Source of the DNA: Sphingomonas sp. S1-29
GTDB lineage: Bacteria > Pseudomonadota > Alphaproteobacteria > Sphingomonadales > Sphingomonadaceae
Direction of reading: 5' to 3'
Length of the DNA: 64,000 bases
Assembly (NCBI RefSeq): GCF_026167545.1
Contig: NZ_CP110678.1
Span: 1,919,501 to 1,983,500 of the forward strand
A model generated the notes under the pieces. That model did not search any database. It saw nothing but the letters and a program-made list of their open reading frames with translations, and was not told the origin of the DNA. The position numbers were made by a program, and so were the translations under genes. How positions within the stretch are numbered: the first letter of the stretch is position 1; each line of letters starts with the position of its first letter. Shown here piece after piece: positions 4,707 to 46,306 of this stretch.

Positions 4707-6782
<2,076 letters not shown>

Positions 6783-6789
6783 GCTAAAT

Positions 6790-6886
6790 CCCCCTCCCGC
6801 TTGCGGGAGGGGCTAGGGGAGGGCCTGTTTCCGTCCGCCCCCAGATACACCCCCTCCCCCGACCCCTCCCGCAAGCGGGAGGGGGG
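6790..6886. repeat. palindromic doublet, family A copy 2 (atpD-atpC gap)
   Basis: Hairpins at 6790-6812 (CCCCTCCCGC arms, TT loop) and 6863-6884 (CCCTCCCGC arms, AA loop) are in inverted orientation. The right edge GGGGGGAGA supplies the ribosome binding site of atpC. Confidence 0.9.
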
Positions 6887-6896
6887 AGATCCAGAA

Positions 6897-7151
6897 ATGC
6901 CCCTGCACTTCGAACTCGTCACCCCCGATCGCCTCGTCCGTAACGAGGAAGTCCATATGGTCACCGTCCCCGGCACCGAGGGCGATTTCGGCGTGCTCGA
7001 AGGCCACGCGCCCTTCATGTCGACGATCCGCGACGGCGACCTGCTGGTCCAGAAGACCGCCAATGGCGCCGCCGAGACGATCCGCGTTGAAGGCGGCCTC
7101 GCCGAAGTCACCACCCGCGGCCTGACGATCCTCGCCGAAAAGGCGGCGTAA
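6897..7151 (+). CDS. atpC: ATP synthase F1 subunit epsilon, short form
   Basis: Epsilon subunit of only 84 residues. Start ATG 6897 is chosen by the GGGGGGAGA site at the end of the repeat and by the family N-terminus ([10 protein letters not shown]); upstream in-frame codons are the translated repeat. The N-terminal beta-sandwich is complete ([26 protein letters not shown]) but the protein stops at ILAEKAA, where full-length epsilon (about 130-140 residues) continues into two helices. The inhibitory C-terminal domain is therefore absent. It is the last gene of the operon. Confidence 0.93.
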
Positions 7152-7366
7152 CCCTTCTCTCTTCGCTGAATGCGTGCTGGGTCGGGGTCGGTCGAGTGCT
7201 CGCGCTACCGCGTCCGCCCGCTCCGCTGGCCGTACCGGCTGGACACCGCCCGCCCGGCCCCTTCCAGAGTGGGGAGGGCATCTGCCCCCGCCTCGAATGG
7301 TTAGGCAATTGTCAAACCTTGCGCGTTAACCCGACCGGATAAACCCGAACGGGCAAGGGAAGTGGC

Positions 7367-8902
7367 ATGAGTGCATTCGGCCGACGTAACGGCATCAGCG
7401 GCGGCGCGGGCGGCGGCAGGCCGGCATTCGGCGTTGCGCGCCCGATGCAGGGGCCGGGCGGCCCCCAGCGCGAAGCTGATGGCGGCGGTGATCAATTCCC
7501 GCCGCTCGATTCGATCCCGCTTCCCGGCAGCCTGCTCGACGACGATCTGTCGTCGAACCTGCTCAACGGCGATGCGATGCAGCGCCTCGCCGATCGCCAG
7601 GCGACCTCGGGCGACCAGGGCAACAGCCGCGTCGAAGGCTTCGAATCATCGATCCACCGTATCAAGGAACAGGTGCTGCCGCGCCTGCTCGAACGCGTCG
7701 ATCCCGAAGCCGCCGCGACGCTCAGCAAGGACGAGCTCGCCGAGGAATTCCGCCCGATCATCGGCGAGGTCCTCGCCGAGCTGAAGCTGACGCTCAACCG
7801 CCGCGAGCAGTTCGCGCTCGAAAAGGTGCTGGTCGACGAATTGCTCGGCCTGGGACCGCTCGAGGAATTGCTCGCCGATCCGGCGATCACCGACATCATG
7901 GTCAACGGTCCCGAACAGACCTTCATCGAGCGCAAGGGCAAGCTCGAGCTCGCCAACATCCAGTTCCGCGACGAGGAGCATCTGTTCCAGATCGCGCAGC
8001 GAATCTGCAACTCGGTCGGCCGCCGCGTCGACCAGACCACCCCGCTCGCCGACGCCCGCCTCAAGGACGGCAGCCGCGTCAACGTCATCGTGCCCCCGCT
8101 CAGCTTGCGCGGCACCGCGATCTCGATTCGTAAATTCTCGGCCAAGCCGATCACGCTCGACATGATGGCCAATGGCGGGTCGATGAGCCAGAAGATGGCG
8201 ACCGCGCTCAAGATCGCCGGGGCCTGCCGCTTCAACGTCGTGATTTCGGGGGGTACCGGCTCGGGCAAGACGACGATGCTCAACGCGCTGTCGAAGATGA
8301 TCGACCCTGGCGAACGCGTGCTGACGATCGAGGATGCCGCCGAGCTTCGGCTGCAGCAGCCGCACTGGCTGCCGCTCGAGACCCGTCCGCCCAACCTCGA
8401 GGGGCAGGGTGAGATCACGATCCGCGACCTCGTCAAGAACGCGCTGCGTATGCGGCCCGACCGGATCATCCTGGGCGAAATCCGTGGCTCGGAATGTTTC
8501 GACCTGCTCGCGGCGATGAACACCGGCCATGACGGATCGATGGCGACGCTTCACTCGAACTCGCCGCGCGAATGCCTCGCGCGCATGGAGAACATGGTGA
8601 TGATGTCCGACATCAAGGTGCCAAAGGAGGCGATCAGCCGCCAGATCGCCGATTCGGTCGACCTGATCATCCAGGTGAAGCGCCTGCGCGACGGTTCGCG
8701 CCGCGTGACCAACATCACCGAGGTGATCGGCATGGAAGGCCCGGTGATCGTCACCCAGGAGCTCTTCAAGTTCGAATATCTCGACGAGAGCGCCGATGGG
8801 AAGATCATCGGCGAATATCGCTCGATGGGGCTGCGGCCCTACACGCTGGAGAAGGCCAAGATGTTCGGCTTCGACCACGCGATGCTCGAGGCGTGCCTGT
8901 AA
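7367..8902 (+). CDS. cpaF: CpaF/TadA-type secretion ATPase
   Basis: A type II/IV secretion-system ATPase of 511 residues, the motor class that drives Flp/Tad pilus assembly. Walker A GGTGSGKTT is near residue 300; the Asp-box and Walker B region (RPDRIILGEIRGSE) and the AATLHSNS-type histidine motif follow. The Gly/Pro-rich N-terminus of about 80 residues is variable. AAGGGAAG lies before ATG 7367. No other tad/cpa gene (cpaB, cpaC, cpaE, tadB, tadC, pilin) is visible within the window, so this copy stands alone. It is followed three bases after its stop by a repeat doublet. Confidence 0.93.
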   Translation: MSAFGRRNGISGGAGGGRPAFGVARPMQGPGGPQREADGGGDQFPPLDSIPLPGSLLDDDLSSNLLNGDAMQRLADRQATSGDQGNSRVEGFESSIHRIKEQVLPRLLERVDPEAAATLSKDELAEEFRPIIGEVLAELKLTLNRREQFALEKVLVDELLGLGPLEELLADPAITDIMVNGPEQTFIERKGKLELANIQFRDEEHLFQIAQRICNSVGRRVDQTTPLADARLKDGSRVNVIVPPLSLRGTAISIRKFSAKPITLDMMANGGSMSQKMATALKIAGACRFNVVISGGTGSGKTTMLNALSKMIDPGERVLTIEDAAELRLQQPHWLPLETRPPNLEGQGEITIRDLVKNALRMRPDRIILGEIRGSECFDLLAAMNTGHDGSMATLHSNSPRECLARMENMVMMSDIKVPKEAISRQIADSVDLIIQVKRLRDGSRRVTNITEVIGMEGPVIVTQELFKFEYLDESADGKIIGEYRSMGLRPYTLEKAKMFGFDHAMLEACL

Positions 8903-8905
8903 TTA

Positions 8906-9032
8906 CCCCCCCTCCCTGAAAGGGAGGGGGCTGGGGTGGTCGAGTGCTCGCGATACGGCCGCCGAGCGTGGCGGCGGAGCCGTACCACGAGCCCCCTACC
9001 CACCCCCGACCCCTCCCTTTCAGGGAGGGGGG
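8906..9032. repeat. palindromic doublet, family A copy 3
   Basis: Inverted hairpins lie at about 8909-8930 (CCTCCCTGAAAGGGAGG) and 9009-9030 (CCTCCCTTTCAGGGAGG). A degenerate inner repeat (CGATACGG ... CCGTACCACG) makes the spacer longer than in other copies. It lies immediately after the cpaF stop. Confidence 0.85.
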
Positions 9033-29495: not shown

Positions 29496-30089
29496 TCAGG
29501 CGACGCGGTTGAACTGGTCGAATTCGGGCCGCGGGCTGCGGTCGAAGATCGACGAAGGATCGCCCTTGCCCAAAGTCGCGATGAAGTTGACCTTCACCGC
29601 CGGCTGGTCGGCGAAGAACGCGGCATTTACCTTGTCGGCATCGAAGCCCGACATCGGCCCGACGTCCCAGCCGAGCGCGCGTGCGGCGATGATCAGATAC
29701 GCACCCTGAAGCGAACCGTTGCGCAGCGCGCTCAGCTTGCGGCCTTCGGGATCGCCCTCGAACCACGCCTTGGCGTCGGTATGCGGGAACAGCCAGGGGA
29801 GCTGTTCGTGGAATTCCTCGTCCATCCCGATGACCACCGCGGCGGGCGCTTTGCGGATCTTGTCGGCGTTGCTGTCGCTCGCGCACGCCGCCAGCGTATC
29901 GCGCGATGCCTGGTCGAGGCACCACACGAAGCGCGACGGCTGCTGGTTCGCCGAGGTAGGCCCCATCTTGAGCAGGTCGTAGATCGCGCGCGCATCGGCT
30001 TGCGTGAACGGCGCGTCGGTGAAGCCGTTATAGGTGCGCGCGGCGCGGAAGATCGTATCGAGCGCCGCTGCGTCGAGGGGTTGGGCCAT
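29496..30089 (-). CDS. nitroreductase family protein, RutE-like (malonic semialdehyde reductase family)
   Basis: A 197-residue FMN oxidoreductase. GPTSANQQPSRFVW is the FMN-binding start and GWDVGPMSGFDADKV the late conserved segment; both match RutE-type reductases. ATG 30089 is chosen because AAGGA lies 6 bases upstream; ATG 30095 would abut the site directly. No other rut gene is near, so a role in pyrimidine breakdown cannot be claimed from context. Confidence 0.87.
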   Translation of the reverse strand: MAQPLDAAALDTIFRAARTYNGFTDAPFTQADARAIYDLLKMGPTSANQQPSRFVWCLDQASRDTLAACASDSNADKIRKAPAAVVIGMDEEFHEQLPWLFPHTDAKAWFEGDPEGRKLSALRNGSLQGAYLIIAARALGWDVGPMSGFDADKVNAAFFADQPAVKVNFIATLGKGDPSSIFDRSPRPEFDQFNRVA

Positions 30090-30120
30090 CGTCATTCCTT
30101 CGGATCGTTCGGATAGGGTG

Positions 30121-30705
30121 TCAGACCGCGCGAACTTCGGTCACTTCGGGAACATAATATTTGAGCAATTGCTCGATCCCGTTCTTCAGCGTTGCCGAAG
30201 ACGACGGGCATCCCGCGCACGCCCCCTGCATCTGCAGATACACCTTGCCCTCGTTGAACCCGCGATAGACGATGTCGCCGCCGTCGTTGGCGACCGCGGG
30301 ACGGACGCGAGTCTCGATCAGGTCGCGGATCTGCGCGACGATATCGGCATCCTCGGGATTGTCGCCGAAATCACCGCTCTCGGCGGGCACCGAAATGCCG
30401 CCCGCGCTGCCGGGGCGGAACAGTGGCATGTCACCCGCAAAATGATCGAGCAGGATCGCCAGCACGTCGGGCTTCAACCCGACCCATTCGACACCCGGCG
30501 CCGCGGTGACCGACACGAAGTCCGATCCGAAGAACACCCCGGTCACGTCGCCTAAGTCGAACAACGCCTGTGCCAGCGGCGATGCCTCGGCATCCTCGGG
30601 ATCGGCGAAGTCGCGCGTGCCCGACGGCATCACCGTGCGGCCCGGCATGAACTTCAGCGTGGCGGGGTTGGGGGTGGTTTCGGTTTCGATCAGCATCACT
30701 GGCAT
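30121..30705 (-). CDS. NifU-like Fe-S cluster carrier (Nfu type)
   Basis: A 194-residue protein with an N-terminal Nfu domain (IETETTPNPATLKFMPGR) and a C-terminal NifU domain holding the cluster pair CAGC. It delivers Fe-S clusters to client enzymes. ATG 30705 or ATG 30696 (MLIETETTPNP) are both possible; the family usually begins with the latter. It is divergent from purB. Confidence 0.92.
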   Translation of the reverse strand: MPVMLIETETTPNPATLKFMPGRTVMPSGTRDFADPEDAEASPLAQALFDLGDVTGVFFGSDFVSVTAAPGVEWVGLKPDVLAILLDHFAGDMPLFRPGSAGGISVPAESGDFGDNPEDADIVAQIRDLIETRVRPAVANDGGDIVYRGFNEGKVYLQMQGACAGCPSSSATLKNGIEQLLKYYVPEVTEVRAV

Positions 30706-30844
30706 GTGGCGGCCAGCAGGGGCGCGATCAACCCCGAAACGCAGCCGCAGCCCGGTTTGCGCCGCCGTCGCCCCTTTGCTAGCGCTCGCGGCACCGCGCG
30801 CCGCTCCGCTCGATGCCCGGATTCGCCATTCGAAAGGACATATC

Positions 30845-32188
30845 TTGGTTCCTCGCTACGCCCGCGCTGCCATGACCGACCTCTGGACGCCCGAGGCGCG
30901 CTTCCGCATCTGGTTCGAGATCGAAGCGCACGCGACCGACGCGCTCGCCGACCTCGGCGTCGTGCCGCGCGAGGCCGCGCAGGCGTTGTGGGACTGGTGG
31001 AACGCCGCGCGCGCGGCCTCTGCCGATGGCGAGGCACCGATCGACGTCGCCGCGATCGACGCGATCGAGGCGGTGACCAAGCATGACGTCATCGCCTTCC
31101 TCACCTGGGTTTCCGAGCAGGTCGGCCCGCAGGCGCGTTTCATGCACCAGGGCATGACCTCGTCCGACGTGCTCGACACCTGCCTCGCGGTCCAGCTCGC
31201 GCGCGCCGCCGATCTGCTGATCGCCGATCTCGACGCGCTGCTGGCGGCGATCAAGACCCGCGCGTTCGAACACAAGCTCACCCCGACGATCGGCCGCAGC
31301 CACGGCATCCATGCCGAACCCGTCACCTTCGGCCTCAAGCTCGCCCAGGCCTATGCCGAATTCGCGCGTAATCGCGAACGGCTGGTCGCCGCGCGCGCCG
31401 ACATCGCCACCTGCGCGATTTCGGGCGCGGTCGGCACCTTCGCCAATATCGACCCCGCGGTCGAAGCGCATGTCGCCGCCAAGATGGGCCTCAGCGTCGA
31501 GCCGGTGTCGACCCAGGTCATCCCGCGCGATCGCCACGCGATGTTCTTTGCCACGCTCGGCGTGATCGCCAGCTCGATCGAGCGCCTCGCCACCGAAGTC
31601 CGCCACCTCCAGCGCACCGAAGTCTTGGAGGCCGAGGAACATTTCTCGCCCGGCCAAAAGGGCTCGTCGGCGATGCCGCATAAGCGCAACCCAGTATTGA
31701 CCGAAAACCTAACCGGCCTGGCCCGCATGGTCCGCGGCTATGTCACCCCCGCGCTCGAGAATGTCGCTTTGTGGCACGAGCGCGACATCAGCCATTCGTC
31801 GGTCGAGCGCTATATCGGCCCCGATGCTACGATCACCCTCGATTTCGCGCTCGCCCGCCTCACCGGGGTGATCGAAAAGCTGGTCGTATACCCGGTGCGG
31901 ATGCAGAAGAATCTCGATCGCATGGGCGGCCTCGTCCATTCGCAGCGCGTCCTGCTCGCGCTCACCCAGGCGGGCGTCAGCCGCGAGGATTCCTACCGCC
32001 TCGTCCAGCGCAACGCGATGAAAGTGTGGGAAAGCGACGGCGAATTGTCGCTGCTCGAACTGCTAAAGGCCGACCCCGAAGTCACCGCCGCGCTGCCGGT
32101 CGAGGAGATCGAGGCGAAGTTCGACCTCGGCTATCATTTCAAGCACGTCGACACGATCTTCGCGCGGGTGTTTGGCACGGGGGGCTAG
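30845..32188 (+). CDS. purB: adenylosuccinate lyase
   Basis: A 447-residue lyase catalysing two steps of purine synthesis. The fumarase/aspartase signature SSAMPHKRNP and HQGMTSSDVLDT are present. The start is TTG 30845, with AAAGGA at 30834-30839 directly upstream, giving (M)VPRYARAAM; the first ATG in frame (30872) would lose conserved residues. The frame is open far upstream but that part is antisense to nfu. Confidence 0.95.
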   Translation: MVPRYARAAMTDLWTPEARFRIWFEIEAHATDALADLGVVPREAAQALWDWWNAARAASADGEAPIDVAAIDAIEAVTKHDVIAFLTWVSEQVGPQARFMHQGMTSSDVLDTCLAVQLARAADLLIADLDALLAAIKTRAFEHKLTPTIGRSHGIHAEPVTFGLKLAQAYAEFARNRERLVAARADIATCAISGAVGTFANIDPAVEAHVAAKMGLSVEPVSTQVIPRDRHAMFFATLGVIASSIERLATEVRHLQRTEVLEAEEHFSPGQKGSSAMPHKRNPVLTENLTGLARMVRGYVTPALENVALWHERDISHSSVERYIGPDATITLDFALARLTGVIEKLVVYPVRMQKNLDRMGGLVHSQRVLLALTQAGVSREDSYRLVQRNAMKVWESDGELSLLELLKADPEVTAALPVEEIEAKFDLGYHFKHVDTIFARVFGTGG

Positions 32189-32264
32189 GCTGGAGGGTCG
32201 TCAACGCGGTCGGTCGGCACGCGATAGCTAGCTGGGCGAGAGCCGTGCTCGTCTCGGCTCCTCG

Positions 32265-33824
32265 CTAGATTTCGGCTTCCAGCTCCCGCAAGCTGCGACC
32301 CCGCGTTTCACGACCAGCATAGCCGACCAGCCCTGCCGATGCGGTCATGGGCACCAACAAGGCGAGGGCGGCCCCCCCTAGCGTTGGAATAAGGCCGACC
32401 AGAGCGAAGCCCTGCGCCGCCACGCCACCAAACTTGCTGCTGGCAGCGATCAAGCCGGTTGCGCGGCCGCGCACACCAAGCGGGTAGTTCTCCGCCGCGT
32501 ACGGCAGCAACACCGCGATCATGCCGTTGCTGCCAACGACCAGCAGCGCGATAACCGCGATCAGCACCGGGGGGGAAGAAAGTGCGGTGGCGGGAAGCAG
32601 TGCTCCGCCCAGTCCCATCAGCGTCAGCATGATGGTTCCGACCAGCGTCCATTTGCTGCTCCAGCGGCTGTAGAGCAGGGCTGCAACCATGATCGTTGGT
32701 AGTGCGACCAGCGCCGAGCTAGCGATGATCCCGCTGGCAAGCTCCGCGCTGAAGCCGCGATCGCGAAGATCGGATGGCAGCCAGAGCAGCAGTCCGAAAG
32801 TAACAAAGCTCCACGACAAGGCGGAGATCACCAGCGCTGCCGTCAGTTGTCGGTGATGCTGAGCTGCGAAGGCAGCATTGGGGGGCGTTGGTGCCGCCTG
32901 ACGCCGCACAATACCGAACCGGTCAGCCATTTGCGCCAACTCCGCCTCTCGCCCCTGCTCCAGTAGAAAGCGCGGGGATTCTGGGATCCACCTTGCCAGC
33001 GCGAGCAGCAGCAGGCCGGTCGGAAAACCCTGGAGCCACAAGCTTCGCCAACCAAACGCCGGCTCGAACAGGTGAGCGGCCCCGCTAGCGGCAAGGTAGC
33101 CGCCGACCAGACCGGTCCCGCCCACGAGCACCAGCACCCAGCTGCGATGCCGCGGTGGCATCACTTCGGCCAGCAAGGTGTAGACGACCGGCAGCATGCC
33201 CCCGGCCGAACAACCCATCAGGAAGCACATCAGCAGGTTCCACTCGAACGAGGGCATCGCCCCGCAGATGGATGTGGAGACGAACAGGATGGTCGACAGC
33301 AGAATGGACACGCGGCGGCCATAGATGTCCGCCAGCCAACCCCAGACAAACGATCCAATGGTGGTACCAAGGAGGGCGACGAACGGCAGCATGGCCGCGG
33401 ACGCCGCAGCGATGCCGTACTCGTCGCGCATGCCGGGCAGCACGAAACCCAGCGTCGCGGGTTTCATCGTGTCGATGATCAGGCCCAGCGTCAGGACCAG
33501 AAGCACCGTAGCGTGCCAACGGCCAAACGGTGTCTCGTCCGGGGCCTCGAACATCGTTGCGGCATGTGCATCATGCGTAACGCGTCGCTTTGGAAGCGCC
33601 CCGAAGATTGCCGCCGGCACGCCGAAAAGGATCAGCGCCATGCCCGCGTACATCCAGCCGTCCATCGGCATGCCGGCCAGATGATTGCCCATCTGGTGCG
33701 CCATTGCGAGCATCGGCAGGTGCAGAGCCACGCCGACACTGATCGCCGCGCAGCCCGCCCAGAAGATGGGCCAGCGTTCGCCGATTACCGATGCGCGACG
33801 CACCGCGTGGTTGCTTCGTGTCAT
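32265..33824 (-). CDS. MFS transporter, unknown substrate
   Basis: A 519-residue protein with about twelve membrane segments in two halves. The MFS loop motif GWLADIYGRR follows TM2 and RWIPESPRFLLEQGRE in the central loop is typical of sugar/organic acid porters. ATG 33824 with GGGGAG upstream. It points toward purB and away from uvrA. Codon choice looks slightly less GC-extreme than in neighbours, a weak hint of later arrival. The substrate is not inferable. Confidence 0.88.
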   Translation of the reverse strand: MTRSNHAVRRASVIGERWPIFWAGCAAISVGVALHLPMLAMAHQMGNHLAGMPMDGWMYAGMALILFGVPAAIFGALPKRRVTHDAHAATMFEAPDETPFGRWHATVLLVLTLGLIIDTMKPATLGFVLPGMRDEYGIAAASAAMLPFVALLGTTIGSFVWGWLADIYGRRVSILLSTILFVSTSICGAMPSFEWNLLMCFLMGCSAGGMLPVVYTLLAEVMPPRHRSWVLVLVGGTGLVGGYLAASGAAHLFEPAFGWRSLWLQGFPTGLLLLALARWIPESPRFLLEQGREAELAQMADRFGIVRRQAAPTPPNAAFAAQHHRQLTAALVISALSWSFVTFGLLLWLPSDLRDRGFSAELASGIIASSALVALPTIMVAALLYSRWSSKWTLVGTIMLTLMGLGGALLPATALSSPPVLIAVIALLVVGSNGMIAVLLPYAAENYPLGVRGRATGLIAASSKFGGVAAQGFALVGLIPTLGGAALALLVPMTASAGLVGYAGRETRGRSLRELEAEI

Positions 33825-34014
33825 TGTGCTCCCCGACGGGGCGCTCCTAGCCTGCCAAGCGCAGCGCGCCAACTTGCCACTTGGGGCGCAGCGCGGTTTA
33901 TCGGCTCACCCCCACGGCAGTCACGGCGCGCGAAAGCCGCACCACCACCCCCCTACCAGCCCCGTGATCGCGCCCCTATCTCGTGCCCCGGCCTTGGCCC
34001 TAGCCCTAGCTCCA

Positions 34015-34029
34015 GAACGAAGATAGAAC
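34015..34029 (+). promoter_or_regulatory. LexA (SOS) box of uvrA
   Basis: GAACGAAGATAGAAC is a GAAC-N7-GAAC direct repeat, the complement form of the alphaproteobacterial LexA consensus GTTC-N7-GTTC. It ends 7 bases before the uvrA ATG, so a bound LexA would block a promoter or early elongation. Position in front of a classic SOS gene supports the call. Confidence 0.85.
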
Positions 34030-34036
34030 GCACCGC

Positions 34037-37048
<3,012 letters not shown>

Positions 37049-37170
37049 GCCCTTTCTAATCGGGGGAGAGGATGGGGCCGGCCAGATTCGTATTTCGACC
37101 TTGTTCGGATTGGCTATCTTACCGATTGCGGGGACCGAAAAAACCACTTTACTTGGTTGCCGGTAAAACT

Positions 37171-37195
37171 CACTTTGCCGTTAACGGCGAAAGTG
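37171..37195 (+). other. inverted repeat before the OLD-type gene
   Basis: CACTTTGCCG, TTAA, CGGCGAAAGTG form a hairpin with one bulge, ending 7 bases before the ATG at 37203. A related CACTTT...GCCGGTAA lies 25 bases upstream. It may be an operator or may hide the start codon in structure. Either role is inference. Confidence 0.5.
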
Positions 37196-37202
37196 GATCG
37201 AG

Positions 37203-39095
37203 ATGAGATACCTGAAATTCCGCATTCTCAACTTTAAGGGTATCAAGGAAGCTAATATTGACCTTCGCTCTATGACCGGAGCGAACGTTTTTTCGTTAGT
37301 CGGACTGAATGAAAGTGGAAAAACCACAATCCTTGAAGCTATCCATAGCTTCTCACCGGACTATTTAACAAATAGCCTCAGAAAGACCAAGTCGAAAACT
37401 GCTGCTGACTCTGCCAAAGACCGCCTTCCTCGACATTTACTCGCACGGTTTACGGGATCCATTATCGTCGAAGCGACCGTAGAAATATCCGAGAAGGAAA
37501 AGTCGGATATTGCCGATGACATTAGGGGTGAGACCGGCATATTTATATTGAAGGACGATTTACCAGATACCTTTACGTTGTGTCGCTCTGATGTATTTGA
37601 ACGCGGGGACTATGTTGACACAACAAGGCGGTTCGGATTCGAATTGAAAGGAAAGCGTCAAGGCGATCGCAAACGCAAGGTTATATCGGGAGACGATTAT
37701 AACGCAGTGTATGATTGCCTTTGGGGCGCGACGCCGGACATAGCCTACTACGACAGCTTCATATTTGATTTCCCCAAAAGGATATACCTCACCAACCGTC
37801 CAGGCGCGGGGAGCTGGGTATACCGTAAAATGTTCGAAGACGTTCTAGCAGCAGGCAAGGTAAAATATAAACTCGACGATATCGTCCGACGCATACAGAA
37901 TGACCACTATAAGCGATCCTGGTTAGAGTTTTTCATTGCATGGAGCGAGGAAGATGAAAAATCTCGCGTTCAACAAATAATTGACCAAGCGTCAAATACG
38001 ATTACGGAATCTGTTTTTGGCAAGTGGAACAAGATTTTTGGAGAAGATGTTGGAGATAAAGAAATATCCGTCGAGTTTGGCGTAGAGGAAGGGCGGGTTT
38101 TAGATAAGTCCTCAAAGTCATATTTAGCATGCGACAACCACGACCTTTATATTTCTCTACAGATAAAGCAAGGAACAAGGCGCTTTCCGATCCAGGATAG
38201 GTCATTGGGCTTTAGATGGTTTTTCGCCTTTTTGCTCTTTACGCAGTTTAGAACGAAAAGAAGTGAATTCCGTCCAGTGCTGTTTTTGTTTGATGAGCCT
38301 GCTGCCAATTTACATTCGGCTGCGCAAGAACGCTTGATAGAGAGTTTTCCGGAAATTGCGACCGGCAATAACATGCTATTATACACTACTCATTCTCACT
38401 ACATGATAAGTCCAGATTGGCTAGAGCAGACCTTCATCGTAACCAATGCAGCTGATGCACCTGGGGTCAGCATGGTGGACTCTGCCATCATAGATGACGA
38501 GTTTTTGGACATAAAAGCCCAGCGATATCGCGATTTTGCAAATGCCCATCCGTCTGAGACTAGTTACTTCCAGCCTATAATGGATCGCCTCGAAGTACGG
38601 CCTAGTAGATTTGATGCATCATTGCCAAGTGTCGTTCTGGAAGGAAAATCGGACTATTACTTACTGCGTTACGCATCTATACTTCTAGATTGTAAAAATG
38701 TACGCCTTATTCCTGCAACAGGATCGGGGACGTTCTCCGCGCTTATTGGGTTAGGAGCAGCCTGGGGTACCAAGTTCGTTTTCCTACTCGACAGTGACAA
38801 TGCCGGGATCAAAGAGCGAGCTAGATACGCACTCGACCATGGGGCTCGAGCCGAGGCAATCTGCTGCTTGAGGGATTTCGATGATAGCCTCTCTGATATC
38901 GAATCATTGTTGGACACCCAGTCACGTGAATTAATCTCTACTTATCTTAAAGTAGAAAGGTTGTCTAAGAAGACCATAATGCGCTTTTTCCAAGAACAAC
39001 TTGCCAAACGTGATATTTTCTCTTTAGGCTCTGGGTTCGAGCAGCGGGCCGGCGCTGTTCTTCTTGGACTTAATGGGAAAATCGAATCTCTTTGA
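37203..39095 (+). CDS. OLD-type ATPase/TOPRIM nuclease, probable phage-defence gene
   Basis: A 630-residue protein. The N-terminal ABC-type ATPase has Walker A GLNESGKTT (residues 34-42), Walker B LFLFDEPAANLH (near 361-370) and an H-loop YTTHSHYMI. The C-terminal TOPRIM domain shows VVLEGKSDYY (acidic residue near 479) and LLDSDNAG (near 528). This order defines the OLD (overcoming lysogenization defect) family, whose members act in phage defence alone or with partners (Gabija, PARIS, retron-Eco8). No UvrD-like helicase, reverse transcriptase or AriB partner is seen. Base composition differs sharply: two sampled 60-base lines (37321, 38281) hold 24 and 27 G+C against 36 at 36001. Recent transfer is likely. 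Confidence 0.85.
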   Translation: MRYLKFRILNFKGIKEANIDLRSMTGANVFSLVGLNESGKTTILEAIHSFSPDYLTNSLRKTKSKTAADSAKDRLPRHLLARFTGSIIVEATVEISEKEKSDIADDIRGETGIFILKDDLPDTFTLCRSDVFERGDYVDTTRRFGFELKGKRQGDRKRKVISGDDYNAVYDCLWGATPDIAYYDSFIFDFPKRIYLTNRPGAGSWVYRKMFEDVLAAGKVKYKLDDIVRRIQNDHYKRSWLEFFIAWSEEDEKSRVQQIIDQASNTITESVFGKWNKIFGEDVGDKEISVEFGVEEGRVLDKSSKSYLACDNHDLYISLQIKQGTRRFPIQDRSLGFRWFFAFLLFTQFRTKRSEFRPVLFLFDEPAANLHSAAQERLIESFPEIATGNNMLLYTTHSHYMISPDWLEQTFIVTNAADAPGVSMVDSAIIDDEFLDIKAQRYRDFANAHPSETSYFQPIMDRLEVRPSRFDASLPSVVLEGKSDYYLLRYASILLDCKNVRLIPATGSGTFSALIGLGAAWGTKFVFLLDSDNAGIKERARYALDHGARAEAICCLRDFDDSLSDIESLLDTQSRELISTYLKVERLSKKTIMRFFQEQLAKRDIFSLGSGFEQRAGAVLLGLNGKIESL

Positions 39096-39158
39096 TAGCC
39101 AGCGCTTACGCAAGCTTGAACAGTCCTTGCTTGTGGCTGGTAGAATGAGTTGCACCCT

Positions 39159-39434
39159 TCAACCCAACCCCGCCGCCTTCCGTAGCGCCTCGTTCATCCG
39201 CGCCTGCCACCCCGGCCCGCCTTCGCGAAACTTCTCGATCACGTCGGGATCGAGCCGCAGCGTCACCTGGCGCTTCGCCGCGCCGCGCAGCGGCGGGCGG
39301 CCCTTCGCGACGCCGCTGCGCCCCAGATAGCCCGTCGCCGGGCGGATCACCTTGCCGCCGATCGCGATCTCGGCGACCTCGGCCATTACCGCCGTCAGCT
39401 CGGGGGCATCGTCCGGGTCAGTCCAGTCCGACAT
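39159..39434 (-). CDS. brnA: BrnA-type antitoxin
   Basis: A 91-residue protein ending in RQVTLRLDPDVIEKFREGGPGWQARMNEALRKAA, the C-terminal ribbon-helix-helix of BrnA (RLDPDVIEKF, GWQxRMNEAL). The N-terminal part is acidic and would bind the toxin. The reading frame is intact and its start overlaps the end of the broken brnT. It normally neutralises BrnT and represses the operon. Confidence 0.88.
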   Translation of the reverse strand: MSDWTDPDDAPELTAVMAEVAEIAIGGKVIRPATGYLGRSGVAKGRPPLRGAAKRQVTLRLDPDVIEKFREGGPGWQARMNEALRKAAGLG

Positions 39435-39689
39435 GCTTGATCTCCCATTGGTGCAAGCGCTGCACCGAAATCACGCGGCGGGCACCCTCGCGCTCGGTCC
39501 ACACGACGGCGACGGCAACCTGCTCGATCCAGCCATAGCTGACGTACCGGGTCTCGCCGTAATCGACCGGTCGTCGACCAGCGTCTTCACGCGGCCATCG
39601 AACACCGATCCGGCATCGGCAAAATCCAGTCCCCGCTCGCGCAGCGTCGCGTCACGCTTGGCCGGATTGAGGCTGATCTCGACGTATCG
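39418..39689 (-). pseudogene. brnT: brnT toxin remnant, frameshifted
   Basis: On the minus strand, 39689 to about 39583 reads RYVEISLNPAKRDATLRERGLDFADAGSVFDGR... then LVDDR, and the continuation DYGETRYVSYGWIEQVAVAVVWTEREG..RRVISV..HQWEIKHVGLD lies in the next frame and ends at TGA 39420-39418. Between CGG (Arg) and GAT (Asp) only TC remains, where BrnT usually has Phe (TTC) in DDRFDYGE, so one T is missing. No ATG, GTG or TTG precedes the fragment in frame (TAG lies shortly upstream). Both defects suggest the RNase toxin is dead. A sequencing error could explain the shift but not the missing start. Confidence 0.82.
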
Positions 39690-39706
39690 ATTATGTAACT
39701 ACGATA
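39685..39706 (-). promoter_or_regulatory. possible BrnA operator
   Basis: TATCG (39685-39689) and CGATA (39702-39706) form an inverted repeat around an AT-rich centre at the former brnT start, where BrnA normally binds. It is short and could be chance. Confidence 0.3.
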
Positions 39707-39879
39707 TGCGTGCGGTCGATGCGGGGTTGCTGGTGGTGCTTCTGCCTTGCTCCCAAAGGCCCCGCCGCGGCAAAGCCGCGTCGTCGGTCGGGCTGGCTTC
39801 GCCACCCGCCGGCCGGGCTTGCCGGTGCCTTCGCACCGTGCTGGATTTAGCTGTCGCTAAATCCTAGCATTCGCGCGCC
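39690..39879. other. gap between brnT remnant and cupin gene
   Basis: 190 bases without a supported gene. It holds several short hairpins, the clearest being GGATTTAG-CTGT-CGCTAAATCC at about 39842-39866, just ahead of the cupin start, and GCGGCAAAGCCGC near 39774. Such scrambled hairpins often mark old insertion edges. Confidence 0.4.
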
Positions 39880-40275
39880 ATGCCCCATCTCCCCACCAAC
39901 CCCGCCCATCTCGGCCTTGGCGCAACCGCCAGCGTCGAACCCGCGATCACCGACGAAAGCTGGTACGCCGCCTATGCCGAGCGCCACGCCGCCGACGGCA
40001 TCGAAGGCCGGCTTGTCTCGCAATATGACTTCACCGAGAGCTGGGCTGCATGGGAGGTCCACCCGCACGGTGCCGAGCTGGTGATCTGCACCGCGGGCCG
40101 CATGACGCTGCACCAGGAACATCCCGACGGCACCACCGCCACGCTAACGCTCGGCCCCGGCGACTATGCGATCAATCCGCCGGGCGTGTGGCACACCGCC
40201 GACATTGCGCCCGGCAACAGTTGCACCGCGATCTTCATCACCCCTGGTGAAGGTACCGCGCACCGCCCGCGGTAA
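39880..40275 (+). CDS. cupin domain protein
   Basis: A 131-residue single-domain cupin. Motif 1 is WEVHPHGAELVICTAGRMTLHQE (His, His, Glu ligands) and motif 2 is GDYAINPPGVWHTADI (His). It is likely a metal-binding enzyme or sensor with unknown substrate. It stands alone between the brn remnant and a family C repeat. Confidence 0.85.
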   Translation: MPHLPTNPAHLGLGATASVEPAITDESWYAAYAERHAADGIEGRLVSQYDFTESWAAWEVHPHGAELVICTAGRMTLHQEHPDGTTATLTLGPGDYAINPPGVWHTADIAPGNSCTAIFITPGEGTAHRPR

Positions 40276-40292
40276 GGGGGCGTGCGCTCTCC

Positions 40293-40396
40293 CGTCACCC
40301 CGGCCTTGAGCCGGGGCCCAGGGCGGCGGGCGCGACGTTCGCGCCTCTTGCCGCATCGCTCGCGGCCCTGGGCCCCGGCTCAAGGCCGGGGTGACG
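40293..40396. repeat. palindromic doublet, family C copy 1
   Basis: The 28-base arms 40293-40320 and 40369-40396 are exact inverses, each a hairpin (CCCCGGCCTTGAGCCGGGG). A further partial GGGGCCGGGGTGACG follows to about 40412. It sits between the convergent cupin and trhO genes. Confidence 0.92.
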
Positions 40397-40443
40397 GTGA
40401 GGGGCCGGGGTGACGATGGGGGGCTGGGGCTACGGTGGGAACG

Positions 40444-41397
40444 TCATTCCTCGCCCTCGCCCGCCCCCAGCACCGCGCCGACATGTGCCACCCCGCGCGC
40501 TTCGGCCAGCCGCTCCTGCCGGTGCCGCTCGGCATAGCCCGCGCGCTGCTCATCGGTGCGCTCGGCATGGCAGGCGGGGCAGCTCACCCCCTCGACATAT
40601 AGCGGCGAGGCGCGCTGCTGCGGCGTCACCGGCATCCGGCACGCGCGGCACAGCGCGTTGTCGCCGGGCTGGAGCCCATGCCCCACCGACACCCGCTCGT
40701 CGAACACGAAGCACTCGCCCTGCCACCGGCTCTGCTCGGGCGGCACGGTTTCGAGATAGGCGAGGATGCCCCCCTGCAAATGATAGACGTCGTCGATCCC
40801 CTCGGCTTTAAGGAACGCGGTCGCCTTCTCGCAGCGGATGCCGCCGGTGCAGAACATCGCCACCTTGGTCGCGCCGCTGGTTACCCGCTCGCGATTGGCG
40901 CGGAACCAATCGGGAAAGTCGCGGAAGGTCCGCGTCGCCGGATCGATCGCCCGGTCGAAGCTGCCGAGCGCCACCTCGTAATCGTTGCGGGTGTCGATGA
41001 CGACCGTATCGGGCTGCTCGATCAGCGCGTTCCAGTCGGCGGGGGGCACATAATGGCCGACGCCGGCAAGCGGATCGATGTCGGGCTCGCCCATCGTCAC
41101 GATCTCGCGCTTCAGCCGCACCTTCATCCGGTGGAACGGCATCTCTGCCGCCCGCGATTCCTTCACCTCGATATCGGCGCACCCCGGCAGCGCCCGGATA
41201 TGCTCCAGCACCGCCTCGATCCCCGCATCGCTCCCCGCGATCGTCCCGTTGATCCCTTCGCGCGCCAGCAGCAGCGTGCCCTTGACGCCGTGCGCGGCGC
41301 ACAAGGCGGCGAGCGGCGGCTGCAGCGCGGCGCAATCGGCAAAGGTGGCGAACCGATACAGCGCGATGATGCGTATCGGCGGTTGGACTGGCGGCAC
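40444..41397 (-). CDS. trhO: tRNA uridine(34) hydroxylase, rhodanese-related
   Basis: A 317-residue protein of the TrhO (YceA) family, which forms ho5U34 in tRNA using oxygen. The rhodanese active loop CTGGIRCEK, the family [12 protein letters not shown] segment and a C-terminal zinc ribbon (CRAC...CPAC) are visible. The start is GTG 41397, with AGGGA 5 bases upstream, giving (M)[15 protein letters not shown]; the ATG at 41457 adds 20 residues foreign to the family. Confidence 0.92.
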
Positions 41398-41519
41398 GGC
41401 GATCCCTAATGGTGGTGAGCCGCGCTCTCTAGCAGACCCGGCGTCGCGAATGAACATGGCTGAACCATTTGCGCGGGCACCCGTTCGGGTAGGAACGGCG
41501 ACACAGCAGCGAGGAATCG

Positions 41520-43808
41520 ATGAGCAAGCAGCATTCGGACAAGCCGCAGATCGAACGCTTCAAGGGCCCCGCGGGCGGCTGGGGATCGGTCCGCTCGCTC
41601 GCCGACATCCTCCCGCGCGAACGGCTGAGCCCCGCCGCGGTCGCCGAGCTGGCGCGCCAGAACAAGCCCGAAGGCTTTGCGTGCGTCAGCTGCGCCTGGG
41701 CCAAGTCGGCCAACCCGCTCCCCGCCGAATTTTGCGAGGAAGGGGCCAAGGCGACCGCGTGGGAGCTGACCGCGCACCGCACCACCCCCGCCTTCTTCGC
41801 CGAACACACGCTCAGCGAACTGCGCGGCTGGACCGATTACGACCTCGAGCAACATGGCCGGCTGACCCAGCCCTTGCGCTACGACGCCGCGACCGACAAA
41901 TATGTCGCGGTGGCGTGGCACGAGGCGTTCGACGCGATCGCCGCCGAACTGCGCGCGCTCGATCCCAAATCGGTGGTGTTCTACGCCTCGGGCCGCGCCA
42001 GTCTCGAGGCGACGTACATGTACGCGCTGATGGCGCGGATGTACGGCAACCAGAACCTGCCCGACAGTTCGAACATGTGCCATGAATCGACCTCGGTCGG
42101 GCTCAAGGCATCGATCGGCGAAGCTACCGGCACCACCCGGCTGCACGATTTCGAGCATTGCGACGCGATCTTCTTCTTCGGCCAGAATGTCGGATCGAAT
42201 GCGCCGCGGATGCTGCACGATCTCAAGTCGGCGCGCGACCGCGGCGTGCCGATCGTTACGTTCAACCCTTTGCGCGAACGCGGGCTCGAACGCTTCACCG
42301 ACCCGCAGAACCCGGTGCAGATGGCGACGCTCGGCGAGACGCGGATCTCGACCCAATATCACCAGGTGAAGGCCGGCGGCGACATCGCGGTGATGATGGG
42401 GATGGCCAAGTTCCTGGTCAAATGGGACGACGCGGCCAAGGCCAGCGGCGAACCACGCGTGCTCGACCAGGCGTTCATCGACCAGCACACGCATGGTGTG
42501 GACGACTTCCTGGCGTCGGTGCGTGCCGCCTCCTGGGAAGCGATCGTTGCCGAAGCGGGCATTTCGAAGACCGATCTCGAGCGTGCCGCGCGCGTCTATG
42601 CCGATGCCAAGGCGGTGCTCGGCATCTACGGCATGGGGCTGACCCAGCATGTGAAGGGCGTCGAGAATGTCCGCATGCTGGTCAACCTGCTGCTGCTGCG
42701 CGGCAATATCGGCAAGCCCGGCGCCGGCCCCACCCCGGTGCGCGGCCATTCGAACGTCCAGGGCCAGCGCACCGTCGGCATGACCGAAAAGACCGAGCTC
42801 GCCCCGGTCGACAAGCTGCGCGAACTCTATCATTTCGATCCGCCCACCGAAAAGGGATTGGACACCGTCGAAGCTTGTCGCGGGATCATCGACGGATCGG
42901 TCAAGGCGCTGATCGGTCTCGGCGGCAATTTCCTGCGCGCAGTGCCCGAAACCGGGCCGATGGAGGCGGCATGGCCCAATCTGCGCCTGTCGGTGCAAAT
43001 CGCGACCAAGCTCAATCGCAACCATCTGTTCGCTGGCGACGTGACTTACCTGCTCCCCTGCCTCGGCCGGATCGAGCGCGACATGCAGGCAACCGGCGCG
43101 CAGGTGGTGTCGGTCGAGGATTCGACCAGCTGCATCCACGGCTCGCGCGGCAAGGCAGATCCCGCGAGCAAGCATCTGATGTCCGAACCCGCAATCGTCG
43201 GCGCGATCGCCAAGCGTATCCTGCCGCCCAATCCCGCGATCGATTGGGATGCATGGGTCGGCGATTACGCACTGATCCGCGACGCGATCGAGGCGACCTA
43301 CCCCGACAAGTTCGCCGACTATAACGCAAGGCTGTTCACCCCCGGCGGCTTCTGGCGCGGCAACAAGGCCGCCGAGCGGATCTGGCAGACGCAGAGCGGC
43401 AAGGCCGAATTCCTCGCTCCCACCGGCCTTTCGGCAACCGGCTTTGCCGACGCGCCCGGCCGTTACCGGCTGATGACGCTGCGGTCGAACGACCAGTTCA
43501 ACACCACCATCTATGGCTATCACGACCGGTTTCGCGGGGTGAAGGGCACGCGCGACGTGCTGTTCATGAACATCCATGACATGGCGGCGGCAGGGGTGAA
43601 GCGCGACCAGATCGTCGCGCTCGAAAGTGATGCCAAGGATGGCCAGACGCGCCGGCTAGAGGGGCTAATTGTAACGCCGTACGACATTCCCGCGGGGTGC
43701 CTGGGGGCCTATTATCCTGAGGCCAATGTCCTGATGCCGCTCGAGCATCATGCCGAGGAAAGCCATGTGCCCGCGGCGAAATCGGTGCCAGTCCGGATCG
43801 TCGCTTGA
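41520..43808 (+). CDS. FdhF/YdeP family molybdopterin oxidoreductase
   Basis: A 762-residue protein of the formate dehydrogenase alpha-like FdhF/YdeP family. It has CVSC plus FCEEG near the N-terminus, a reduced Fe-S ligand set as in YdeP, and the active-site Cys in [11 protein letters not shown] where formate dehydrogenases use Cys or selenocysteine. The C-terminal molybdopterin dinucleotide-binding domain ([13 protein letters not shown]) is present. GAGGA precedes ATG 41520. It is followed by fdhD and mobA, which supply sulfur and the guanine dinucleotide to the cofactor. The substrate is unproven; YdeP is linked to acid resistance. Confidence 0.9.
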
Positions 43809-43832
43809 GCGGCGCGCATATGACCACCCTCC

Positions 43833-43909
43833 CCGTTCGTTTCGAGCGAAGTCGAGAAACGGGGCCCAGCGCAACGCTTCGGTTTCTCGACTTCGCTCGA
43901 AACGAACGG
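43833..43909. repeat. palindromic doublet, family B copy 2
   Basis: The same 28-base arms as copy 1 (24844) occur in inverse orientation around a different spacer. It lies in the fdhF-fdhD gap; its right end GAACGG-AGGG contributes to the fdhD ribosome binding site. Confidence 0.92.
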
Positions 43910-43920
43910 AGGGCGGCAAG

Positions 43921-44697
43921 GTGCCCGTGAGCGCATCCCAGGTGCCATTCGCGCGGATATCGGCGGACGGTGAGTCAACGCCAATCGACCGCGCAATCGC
44001 CGAGGAAACCCCGATCGCGATCGAGTGCAACGGCATCGGCTATGCGGTGCTGATGGCGACCCCCGCCGATCTGCCGGACCTCGCTTATGGCTTTGCCTTG
44101 GCCGAGCGGCTGATCGACCGCGCCGACGACGTAATCGATGTCAACGAGCACGCCACCGACGCCGGCATCGTCCTGCGCGTTACCCTCGCCGAGCGCGTGG
44201 CGATGCGGATCGTCGATCGCGTGCGGCATCGCGTATCCGAATCGGCGTGCGGGCTGTGCGGGATCGAAAATCTCGAACAGGCGCTGCGCCCCCTGCCGCG
44301 CGTCGAACCCGCCGACATCGACGATGCCGCGATCTTCGCCGCGCTGGCGCAGCTCGACCAGCACCAGCCGCTGCACCGCCAGACCGGCGCGGTCCACGCC
44401 GCCGCCGCCTGCACCGCCGATGGAGAGCCCTGGCTGGTGCGCGAGGATGTCGGGCGGCACAACGCCTTTGACAAGCTGATCGGCGCGATGCTGCGCGCCG
44501 GCGCCGATTGGGACGGCGGCTTCGCGCTGCTGACCTCGCGCTGCTCCTACGAACTCGTCGAGAAGGCGGTGCTCGCGGGCTGCCCGCTGCTCGCGACGAT
44601 CTCGGCCCCCACCACGCTCGCGATCGCCCGCGCCGCGCAAGCCGGGCTGGCGCTGCGCGTCCTCGCGCGGCGCGATGCGCTGCTGGCACCGCGATGA
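43921..44697 (+). CDS. fdhD: formate dehydrogenase accessory sulfurtransferase FdhD
   Basis: A 258-residue sulfurtransferase that passes sulfur from IscS to the Mo cofactor. The mobile Cys loop is ESACGLCGIENL, and GAVHAAAAC...VREDVGRHNAFDKL and SRCSYELVEKA are family hallmarks. The start is GTG 43921 with GGAGGGCGG upstream; GTG 43927 is possible. The open frame upstream runs through the repeat and into fdhF. It overlaps mobA by ATGA. Confidence 0.93.
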   Translation: MPVSASQVPFARISADGESTPIDRAIAEETPIAIECNGIGYAVLMATPADLPDLAYGFALAERLIDRADDVIDVNEHATDAGIVLRVTLAERVAMRIVDRVRHRVSESACGLCGIENLEQALRPLPRVEPADIDDAAIFAALAQLDQHQPLHRQTGAVHAAAACTADGEPWLVREDVGRHNAFDKLIGAMLRAGADWDGGFALLTSRCSYELVEKAVLAGCPLLATISAPTTLAIARAAQAGLALRVLARRDALLAPR

Positions 44698-45209
44698 GAC
44701 TGCTCGGCGCGGTGCTCGCGGGCGGACTGTCGCGGCGGTTCGGATCGGACAAGGCCGAGGCGCTGCTCGATGGCGAGCGCCTGATCGACCGGGTGGTCGC
44801 CGCGCTTGGCTCGCAGGTCGACGCGGTGATCCTCTGCGGCCGCGCGCCCGGTCTGCCCGATCGCCCCGCCGGCGGGCTCGGCCCGCTCGCCGGGCTGAAC
44901 GCCGCGCTCCACCACGCCCGCACCCACGGCTTCGATGCGGTGCTGAGCGTCCCCTGCGACGCCCCCTATCTGCCGAGCGACCTGCGTGCGATCCTCGGCG
45001 ACGGCCCCGCCTTCATCGCCGACCAGCCGGTGATCGGCATCTGGCCGGCAGCGCTCGCCGATCGGCTCGACGCGCATCTGCGCGGCGACGACCGATCGCT
45101 ACGCTGCTGGGGCCGCGCGACCGGCGCGTCGCCACGCACTGCGCCGCCGATCGCCAACATCAATACCCCGGCAGACCTTTCGGCGCTGGGCTTTGCAGAC
45201 AAGTCGTAA
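44694..45209 (+). CDS. mobA: molybdenum cofactor guanylyltransferase
   Basis: A 171-residue protein with the nucleotidyltransferase opening AVLAGGLSRRFGSDKA and the VPCDAPYLP Asp motif. It joins GMP to molybdopterin, producing the dinucleotide that the preceding oxidoreductase binds. ATG 44694 overlaps the fdhD stop. It is a little shorter than typical MobA (about 190 residues). Confidence 0.92.
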   Translation: MRLLGAVLAGGLSRRFGSDKAEALLDGERLIDRVVAALGSQVDAVILCGRAPGLPDRPAGGLGPLAGLNAALHHARTHGFDAVLSVPCDAPYLPSDLRAILGDGPAFIADQPVIGIWPAALADRLDAHLRGDDRSLRCWGRATGASPRTAPPIANINTPADLSALGFADKS

Positions 45210-45274
45210 CGCGCGCGCCATGAACAACTTTCGACCAGTATTGCCACCCGGCGCCGCACTTCTATAGCGTCACG

Positions 45275-46306
45275 ATGATGGCCAGCGGCAAACCAACGAT
45301 CAACGACGTCGCGCGTATCGCCGGCGTTTCCAAGAAAACCGTCAGCCGGGTCATCAACCGCTCGCCGCTGCTCCATGTCGACACCCGCGCGCGCGTCGAA
45401 CACGTGATCGCCGAAATGGGGTTCGTCCCCAACCCGCAGGCGCGCGCACTGGCGTTGCGGCGCAATTTCCTGATCGGGCTGATCCACGACAACCCCAATG
45501 CGCAGACCGTGCTCAACGTCCAGCAGGGGATGCTCGAGGGGCTGCGCGATACCGAGTTCGAACTGATCGTCCGCCCGATCAACCGCCACAGCCCACAGAT
45601 GCTGGGTGACGTCCGCCGCTTCCTCGAACGCCAGCGACCGCACGGCGTGCTGCTGATGCCGCCGATCGCCGAGAATCCGGCACTCGCCGAGCTCTGCCGC
45701 GACGTTGGCTGCCGCTATGTGCGGATGGGTTCGGCCGCGCTCGATACGCCCGATCGGATGGTCGCATCGAACGACAGCGAAGTCGTCGGGCTCGCGGTCG
45801 CGCACCTGGTCGATCAGGGGCATCGGCGGATCGCGATGATCGCGGGGCCCGACGGCTTCCTGTCGGCCGCCGAACGCCGCAAGGGCTTCGATGCCGCGCT
45901 CGCCAAGGCGGGGATCACACTGCCACCGGGCTTCGTCGCCGAGGGCGGCTATACCTTCGAATCGGGGATCGCCGCCGCCGATCTGCTGCTCGATCTCGAA
46001 GAGCCGCCGACCGCGATCTTCGCGGGCAATGACGAGATGGCGGCGGGCGCGCTCCACGCCGCGCGGCGCCGCGGCATGAGCGTTCCCGAAGACCTGTCGC
46101 TGATCGGCTTCGACGACACCGGCCTCGCCGCGCATCTGTGGCCGCCGCTCACCACGGTGCATTGGCCGGGCATCATGCTCGCCCGGCTCGGCGCGCGAAA
46201 GCTGATCGCCGATACCTTCGACGAATCGGACCCCGAGGACGATTCGTGGCTGTACGAATCGCAACTGGTGCATCGCGATTCGGTGGCGCCACCCCGCGCC
46301 GGCTAA
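45275..46306 (+). CDS. LacI family regulator, probably of hexuronate genes
   Basis: A 343-residue regulator. The HTH TINDVARIAGVSKKTVSRVIN and the hinge are at the N-terminus, and the periplasmic-binding-protein-like domain shows GHRRIAMIAGP and FAGNDEMAAGAL. It is convergent with kdgK (7-base gap) and next to uxaC and fructuronate reductase, so hexuronate or a 2-keto-3-deoxy acid is the likely effector. An ACCGGT-centred operator at 50361 fits this family. Confidence 0.9.
   Translation: MMASGKPTINDVARIAGVSKKTVSRVINRSPLLHVDTRARVEHVIAEMGFVPNPQARALALRRNFLIGLIHDNPNAQTVLNVQQGMLEGLRDTEFELIVRPINRHSPQMLGDVRRFLERQRPHGVLLMPPIAENPALAELCRDVGCRYVRMGSAALDTPDRMVASNDSEVVGLAVAHLVDQGHRRIAMIAGPDGFLSAAERRKGFDAALAKAGITLPPGFVAEGGYTFESGIAAADLLLDLEEPPTAIFAGNDEMAAGALHAARRRGMSVPEDLSLIGFDDTGLAAHLWPPLTTVHWPGIMLARLGARKLIADTFDESDPEDDSWLYESQLVHRDSVAPPRAG

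Follow-up and report, generated by a model that had tools for sequence, protein, structure and literature searches.

OLD-family proteins have been divided into classes by gene context (PMC10568477), and those of Class 1, such as the T. scotoductus protein TsOLD (6P74), phage P2 Old and E. coli YbjD, are each encoded by one gene combining an SMC-like ATPase with a C-terminal TOPRIM domain. Links to phage defence exist for only a few stand-alone OLD proteins, and a review has asked whether one alone suffices (PMC10568477). As summarised from cited work in PMC13261556, P2 Old is triggered when RecBC function is lost and then cuts a host tRNA, and the TOPRIM domain of YbjD is dispensable (PMC13261556). 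OLD-family proteins can also serve otherwise, an archaeal member acting in the cell cycle (PMC12796447). Defence genes are also known from hotspots between core genes, and hotspots that lack mobile elements have been described as changing by recombination in the core genes on either side (PMC5635113); for cDHS1 and cDHS2 of P. aeruginosa, transduction together with recombination in conserved flanks has been proposed (PMC10250203). Neither Class 1 OLD proteins nor defence hotspots bordered by core genes are new in themselves.

Here we analyse an OLD gene in a 64,000-nucleotide stretch (the window) of the Sphingomonas sp. S1-29 genome, which is held in one contig of 3.38 Mb. With a probability of roughly 75%, we consider the gene to be a horizontally acquired, Class 1-type OLD that at present fills a single-cargo defence hotspot, one that is specific to the family and bounded on the left by the uvrA stop codon.

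Architecture and class of the OLD protein

The OLD gene (37203–39095, + strand) is full length and encodes 630 amino acids with zero internal stops. Pfam recognised AAA_15 (9.5e-22) and AAA_21 (3.5e-12), and OLD-like_TOPRIM scored 0.0053, under its curated cut-off. Motif invariance was assessed in nine sequences, the window protein plus eight homologues with 30–69% identity. On the + strand, the Walker A motif GLNESGKT (residues 34–41; 37302–37325) has G34, L35, N36, E37, G39, K40 and T41 invariant; the ABC signature-like motif RSLGFR (residues 333–338; 38199–38216) has R333, S334, G336, F337 and R338; the Walker B motif LFLFDEP (residues 360–366; 38280–38300) has D364, E365 and P366; and all residues of the TOPRIM catalytic core (E480, D530xD532 and E567; 38640–38903) are invariant. 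The best PDB chain retrieved with a nine-homologue profile was T. scotoductus OLD (6P74, 1e-9), with ATPase and TOPRIM pieces aligned in identical order, and P2 Old could be aligned from Walker B through TOPRIM with a probability of 97%.

An AlphaFold2 model of the protein (mean pLDDT 82.7) gave GajA (E 1.4e-14) and TsOLD as top whole-chain Foldseek matches, OLD proteins of known structure being about 14% identical to it; the whole-chain TM-scores to GajA and TsOLD are low (0.33–0.40), so that the modelled domain arrangement is tentative. The ATPase part is nearest to the heads of SMC, Rad50 and RecF (Z about 20), and the TOPRIM domain, when modelled by itself, comes closest to OLD TOPRIMs (6NK8, Z 10.9, 141 residues, 3.3 Å). 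A viral structure library returned just general SMC/Rad50-like and ATP-dependent endonuclease matches. The protein has the two-domain architecture of the OLD family, an SMC/Rad50-type ATPase followed by a C-terminal TOPRIM domain with predicted nuclease function, and the complete ATPase/TOPRIM protein proposed by an earlier sequence-only reading of this DNA is confirmed by reading frame, Pfam, profile and fold.

Placed by profile, fold and context, the protein is a Class 1 OLD according to its gene context and domain length, because it has no partner gene and its TOPRIM lacks the Class 2 insert. The TOPRIM segment comprises 160 model residues, as in TsOLD (366–525), compared with about 205 in Class 2 OLD proteins and GajA. 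While Gabija GajA, a Class 2 OLD, resembles the window protein in whole-chain Foldseek, the window gene has no adjacent UvrD-like helicase, and its TOPRIM is about 45 residues shorter, leaving no room for the Class 2 insert. As the earlier reading had observed, no helicase, reverse transcriptase or AriB adjoins the gene, whose neighbours are uvrA and BrnA/BrnT. Searches for a Class 3 (retron) arrangement found no adjacent reverse transcriptase and no Rfam match at 36800–40400, and the NCBIfam Eco8 effector model scored 19.8 bits against a cut-off of 250. For PARIS, no second accessory gene lies beside OLD except BrnA/BrnT; the PADLOC AriA match to the OLD protein derives from an AAA_15-like model. 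By inspection, no gene recurs beside OLD at homologous loci, except BrnTA at two. OLD and BrnTA were found together in the window and in L077 (G101; 6347–9006), where the OLD homologue stands beside an apparently intact BrnT/BrnA pair near phage terminase genes. The window protein is distant from the described Class 1 OLDs, has no close named relative and is longer (630 against 528 and 586 amino acids); P2 Old is carried by a prophage, whereas the window gene is chromosomal. OLD biology thereby gains a chromosomal Class 1 family. Since Class 1 OLDs have been described before (PMC10568477, PMC13261556), the phrase 'undescribed defence activity' used in the earlier reading was too strong.

We infer an anti-phage activity from family membership, the lack of a partner, mobility and genomic position. 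The OLD protein would act alone: its SMC/Rad50-like ATPase would restrain the TOPRIM nuclease until a phage-caused signal, such as the loss of RecBC function in the case of P2 Old, which would release DNA or RNA cleavage and so halt the phage, probably with some cost for the host cell. A nuclease step is not to be assumed, because the TOPRIM domain is dispensable in YbjD. The prediction of a stand-alone OLD defence gene draws support from the fold, the motifs, the missing partner, the patchy distribution and the defence systems that relatives carry at the same position.

The AT-rich islet and the distribution of OLD homologues

The gene lies in an AT-rich islet of 2.08 kb (37084–39163; 46% GC), delimited as the maximum-scoring AT segment and by composition profile, which forms the variable cargo segment of the site downstream of uvrA. 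GC content per kb is 0.45–0.47 inside and 0.65–0.70 outside, and the base composition previously noted as far below that of the neighbours thus holds (46% versus about 65% GC). On the left the islet follows uvrA (34037–37048, + strand; from the ORF list), a core gene present across the genus that bounds the hotspot on the left with its 3′ end and whose product here has a C-terminal tail unlike the usual ...VAAE. The right neighbour, here and in many relatives, is the BrnA antitoxin gene (39159–39434, − strand; Pfam BrnA_antitoxin 8e-21), which forms the same right border in other genomes. The adjoining BrnT toxin gene (39421–39683, − strand) is frameshifted, its two frames joining near 39567 in a tblastn comparison with the intact BrnT of L068. 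Of the decayed toxin-antitoxin genes described previously, the toxin is therefore decayed and the antitoxin is intact. A cupin-domain gene follows (39880–40275, + strand; Cupin_2 2.5e-7), the right border of the hotspot in relatives, located 1.8–4.4 kb past uvrA in G116, G198, G098, G219, G199, G016 and G195. After it, at 40294–40400, is a long GC-rich inverted repeat (CACCCCGGCCTTGAGCCGGGGCCCAGG ... CCCTGGGCCCCGGCTCAAGGCCGGGGTGAC) that resembles REP/BIME-type intergenic repeats and of which a 29-base match also occurs in L068. No tRNA gene that could provide an attachment site was found at 30000–46000 and no uvrA 3′ remnant in the window. A plasmid or phage origin of this OLD copy was considered and set aside, as PLSDB and INPHARED held no full-length relative.

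Inverted repeats flank the gene, as previously reported. An imperfect palindrome ahead of the start codon (about 37170–37196, + strand; CACTTTGCCG-TTAA-CGGC(G)AAAGTG) can form an RNA hairpin (−13.1 kcal/mol for 37165–37205), and a second hairpin follows the stop codon. The 5′ palindrome was not seen at ten OLD homologues and matches no Rfam family, and the suggestion that a start-site hairpin controls OLD was consequently dropped: the palindrome is real, yet it is specific to the window. It may be a local regulatory element, and nothing links it to OLD function.

Clear OLD homologues are present in 6 of the 295 genomes examined for the genus and in 7 of the 398 for the family, at differing loci, the opposite of the conservation at this site in all relatives that the sequence-only reading had expected of a housekeeping clade. 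They are lone AT-rich genes (about 40–50% GC) in GC-rich hosts, and their neighbours include terminase genes (L077) and integrases (L075, L076). In Novosphingobium (L008) a homologue is found 1.4 kb after uvrA, between uvrA and argG, and in Altererythrobacter argG likewise lies downstream of the homologue. Further islets hold homologues 3′ of typA (L078), 3′ of lepA (L119) and upstream of the str operon (L118). The copy in L078 (G048; 7024–8923), immediately after typA within an islet of 43% GC, is decayed and split into two frames, and that in L119 (G656; 6592–8526) starts 240 bp past lepA. These positions hint that the 3′ ends of translation-GTPase genes (typA, lepA) possibly accept such islets too.

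This distribution fits a mobile accessory gene, not a housekeeping gene. It bears on the alternative that OLD is a host DNA-repair or cell-cycle gene linked to uvrA, with a placement that is functional. The resemblance of its ATPase fold to SMC, Rad50 and RecF heads, the cell-cycle role of the archaeal OLD-family ATPase (PMC12796447) and the second occurrence near uvrA in Novosphingobium are all consistent with such a role, but OLD is missing from about 98% of congeners although uvrA is genus-wide, most homologues sit elsewhere than near uvrA, with three adjoining phage or integrase genes, and other species have unrelated genes at its place. We regard a housekeeping function linked to uvrA as very unlikely.

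Occupancy, cargo and junctions of the site downstream of uvrA

Comparing the DNA downstream of uvrA among relatives, which the sequence-only reading had proposed, turned up alternative defence genes and a hotspot at which that reading had merely hinted. Of 49 species in the genus, each represented by a single genome and counting that of the window, 35 have an AT-rich islet after uvrA (median 1667 bp, IQR 1373–1862), and the islet begins within 60 bp of the uvrA stop in 22 of these 35, often within 5 bp. Two control genes, purB and typA, were used for comparison, together with a test scoring GC falls that exceed 0.12 inside the first 1.4 kb downstream; for the family, one genome per genus was sampled. 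Such a drop follows uvrA at 22/30 sites in the genus, compared with 0/29 for purB (p 7e-10), and at 16/29 sites across the family, compared with 0/30 for purB (p 6e-7), the sampled species being phylogenetically non-independent and the p values a guide only. Other alphaproteobacterial families have it at 2/26 uvrA sites (p 1.6e-4 versus the family), the GC drop being a proxy that misses GC-rich cargo and is affected by host GC. The 3′ end of typA was discarded as a general hotspot, with a drop at 2/30 sites only, though one OLD homologue is located there. The uvrA site has the same core flank throughout, unrelated cargo, and controls that are nearly or wholly empty, as in a core-gene-bordered hotspot.

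The cargo consists of one unrelated system per species, with one or two genes in each annotated islet. The islets that take the place of the OLD islet elsewhere are alike in overall length, and many of their genes are known or candidate defence systems. In the genus it includes an HD dGTPase-like protein with a nucleotidyltransferase (L058), DUF4238 (L061), GmrSD/NsnA (L063 and L093; NsnA 1e-56 and 2e-68), DUF4365 with PDC-M02B (L064; 8e-88), RT_UG17 (L066; 7e-128), a ParA-like ATPase (L067), DUF6414 (L068), DUF4062 (L079 and L090), dCTP deaminase (L081; dCTPase 4e-147), an HATPase (L087), a ResIII-type helicase (L088), DUF3644 (L091), HEC-01 with DUF4276 (L092; HEC-01A 2e-189), bSEFIR (L095; 5e-88), a weak ApeA match (L099), NACHT (L100) and Kiwa KwaB (L110; 2e-81), and PDC-S60 (8.5e-34) is also among the matches. 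Islets of other genera contain dCTP deaminase (7e-126), PDC-S49 (8e-60), a Mrr-type nuclease and HEPN. Strong PADLOC matches were obtained at 9 sites in the genus and 2 in other genera, and the cargo appears enriched in defence genes as judged by site counts rather than against a formal background rate. Eleven of the 20 genus islet proteins scanned with PADLOC had no strong match, so the site is not purely defensive by the 2023 catalogue. Islets lacking a PADLOC match are L060, L065, L067, L068, L087 and L100 (L104 was scanned by Pfam only), and their proteins include ParA-like, DUF6414, HATPase and NACHT types and some outside any Pfam family; by position, these are candidates for defence proteins. 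A usually GC-rich, nucleotidyltransferase-like gene (...RPVLVGGAAVELYSxSxxATGDFDL...) recurs as the first gene after uvrA in L071, L084, L086, L097 and L107, and could represent either an earlier occupant or a partner of antitoxin type.

AT-rich foreign genes frequently settle at tolerated sites, and the islet could accordingly be neutral foreign DNA whose insertion after uvrA is harmless, with OLD as a passenger. Several islets do carry genes without a defence match, but many occupants strongly match defence systems, most OLD homologues keep intact frames and motifs (the split G048 copy being the one exception), and purB has no islets and typA few. Neutral settlement therefore appears improbable, and we favour the view that the window OLD is this genome's occupant of a Sphingomonadaceae defence hotspot that is integrase-free and takes a single cargo.

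Close pairs of genomes show where homology ends. Between L060 and L063, uvrA is 96.5% identical to within 2 bases of its end, the islets hold unrelated cargo, and the two sequences match again from the cupin start codon; homology breaks in the same way on the uvrA side in L067/L068 and L065/L066. On the right, islets often end directly at the BrnA stop or at the start of the cupin gene. A 3′ remnant of uvrA lies downstream of the intact gene at 10 of 78 sites (6/49 in the genus, 4/29 in the family), compared with 0/59 for purB and 0/30 for typA. The remnants are 46–424 bp long, 72–93% identical and variable in start point. In L071, L094, L099 and L107 the AT-rich cargo begins about 55 bp or less from the expected stop codon of the remnant, so that cargo stands behind a remnant in the same geometry as behind intact uvrA. 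L107 (G010) has two extra uvrA 3′ copies within 0–10.4 kb past uvrA (93% over 424 bp and 87% over 305 bp), with AT-rich cargo after the first, as if insertions had been stacked one after another.

Sharp borders at the uvrA stop, and duplicated uvrA 3′ ends that look like the duplication of an attachment site, could point to a transposon or small integrative element with its own recombinase targeting uvrA. However, annotation of the islets revealed no recombinase or integrase, their space being taken up by the one or two cargo genes; in 22 islets neither direct nor inverted terminal repeats were in excess (6.09 versus 5.91 shuffled; 5.86 versus 5.85), and target duplications did not go beyond chance; and the remnants vary in length and start, unlike a fixed attachment site. 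We therefore think it unlikely that the islet is such an element. For an integrase-free hotspot, the most economical account is that incoming DNA with a uvrA 3′ end and cargo would recombine into uvrA. Homologous recombination in both flanks, uvrA and the right-hand neighbour, would swap the cargo, and recombination on the uvrA side alone would place new cargo in front and leave the old uvrA 3′ end as a remnant. A bolder version, which we offer tentatively and hold to be possible rather than probable, is that the uvrA 3′ end is a dedicated landing site, Sphingomonadaceae-wide, for unnamed integrase-free, non-autonomous units, each comprising one defence system and a uvrA 3′ end, which would insert exactly behind the uvrA stop, restore uvrA and stack newer units before older ones.

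Comparison with known defence hotspots

No uvrA-bordered or Sphingomonas defence hotspot was found in the literature searched, subscription papers and most preprints lying outside it. A fixed site at which each species carries one small, usually different system could serve as a filter and catalogue for new anti-phage systems, with islets unmatched in databases being strong defence candidates from position alone. It also raises the question of how defence genes of 1–2 kb cross species without a recombinase of their own and arrive base-exact behind a stop codon.

Like the hotspots diversified by recombination in core flanks (PMC5635113), the uvrA site has no recognisable mobile element, and its content appears to be swapped between conserved flanks; unlike them, its uvrA remnants suggest one-ended or single-crossover insertions as well. 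With cDHS1 and cDHS2 of P. aeruginosa (PMC10250203) it shares fixed core-gene borders, low GC content, hypervariable defence content and the lack of a single mobile element. The cDHS loci have median cargo sizes of 26 kb and 6 kb, whereas the uvrA site holds one small system with a median of 1.7 kb. It differs further in that its border is exactly the uvrA stop codon, its range is family-wide and its uvrA 3′ remnants mark repeated insertion. Relative to cDHS, the new features are thus the small single-system cargo, the stop-codon-exact border, the family range and the uvrA 3′ remnants.
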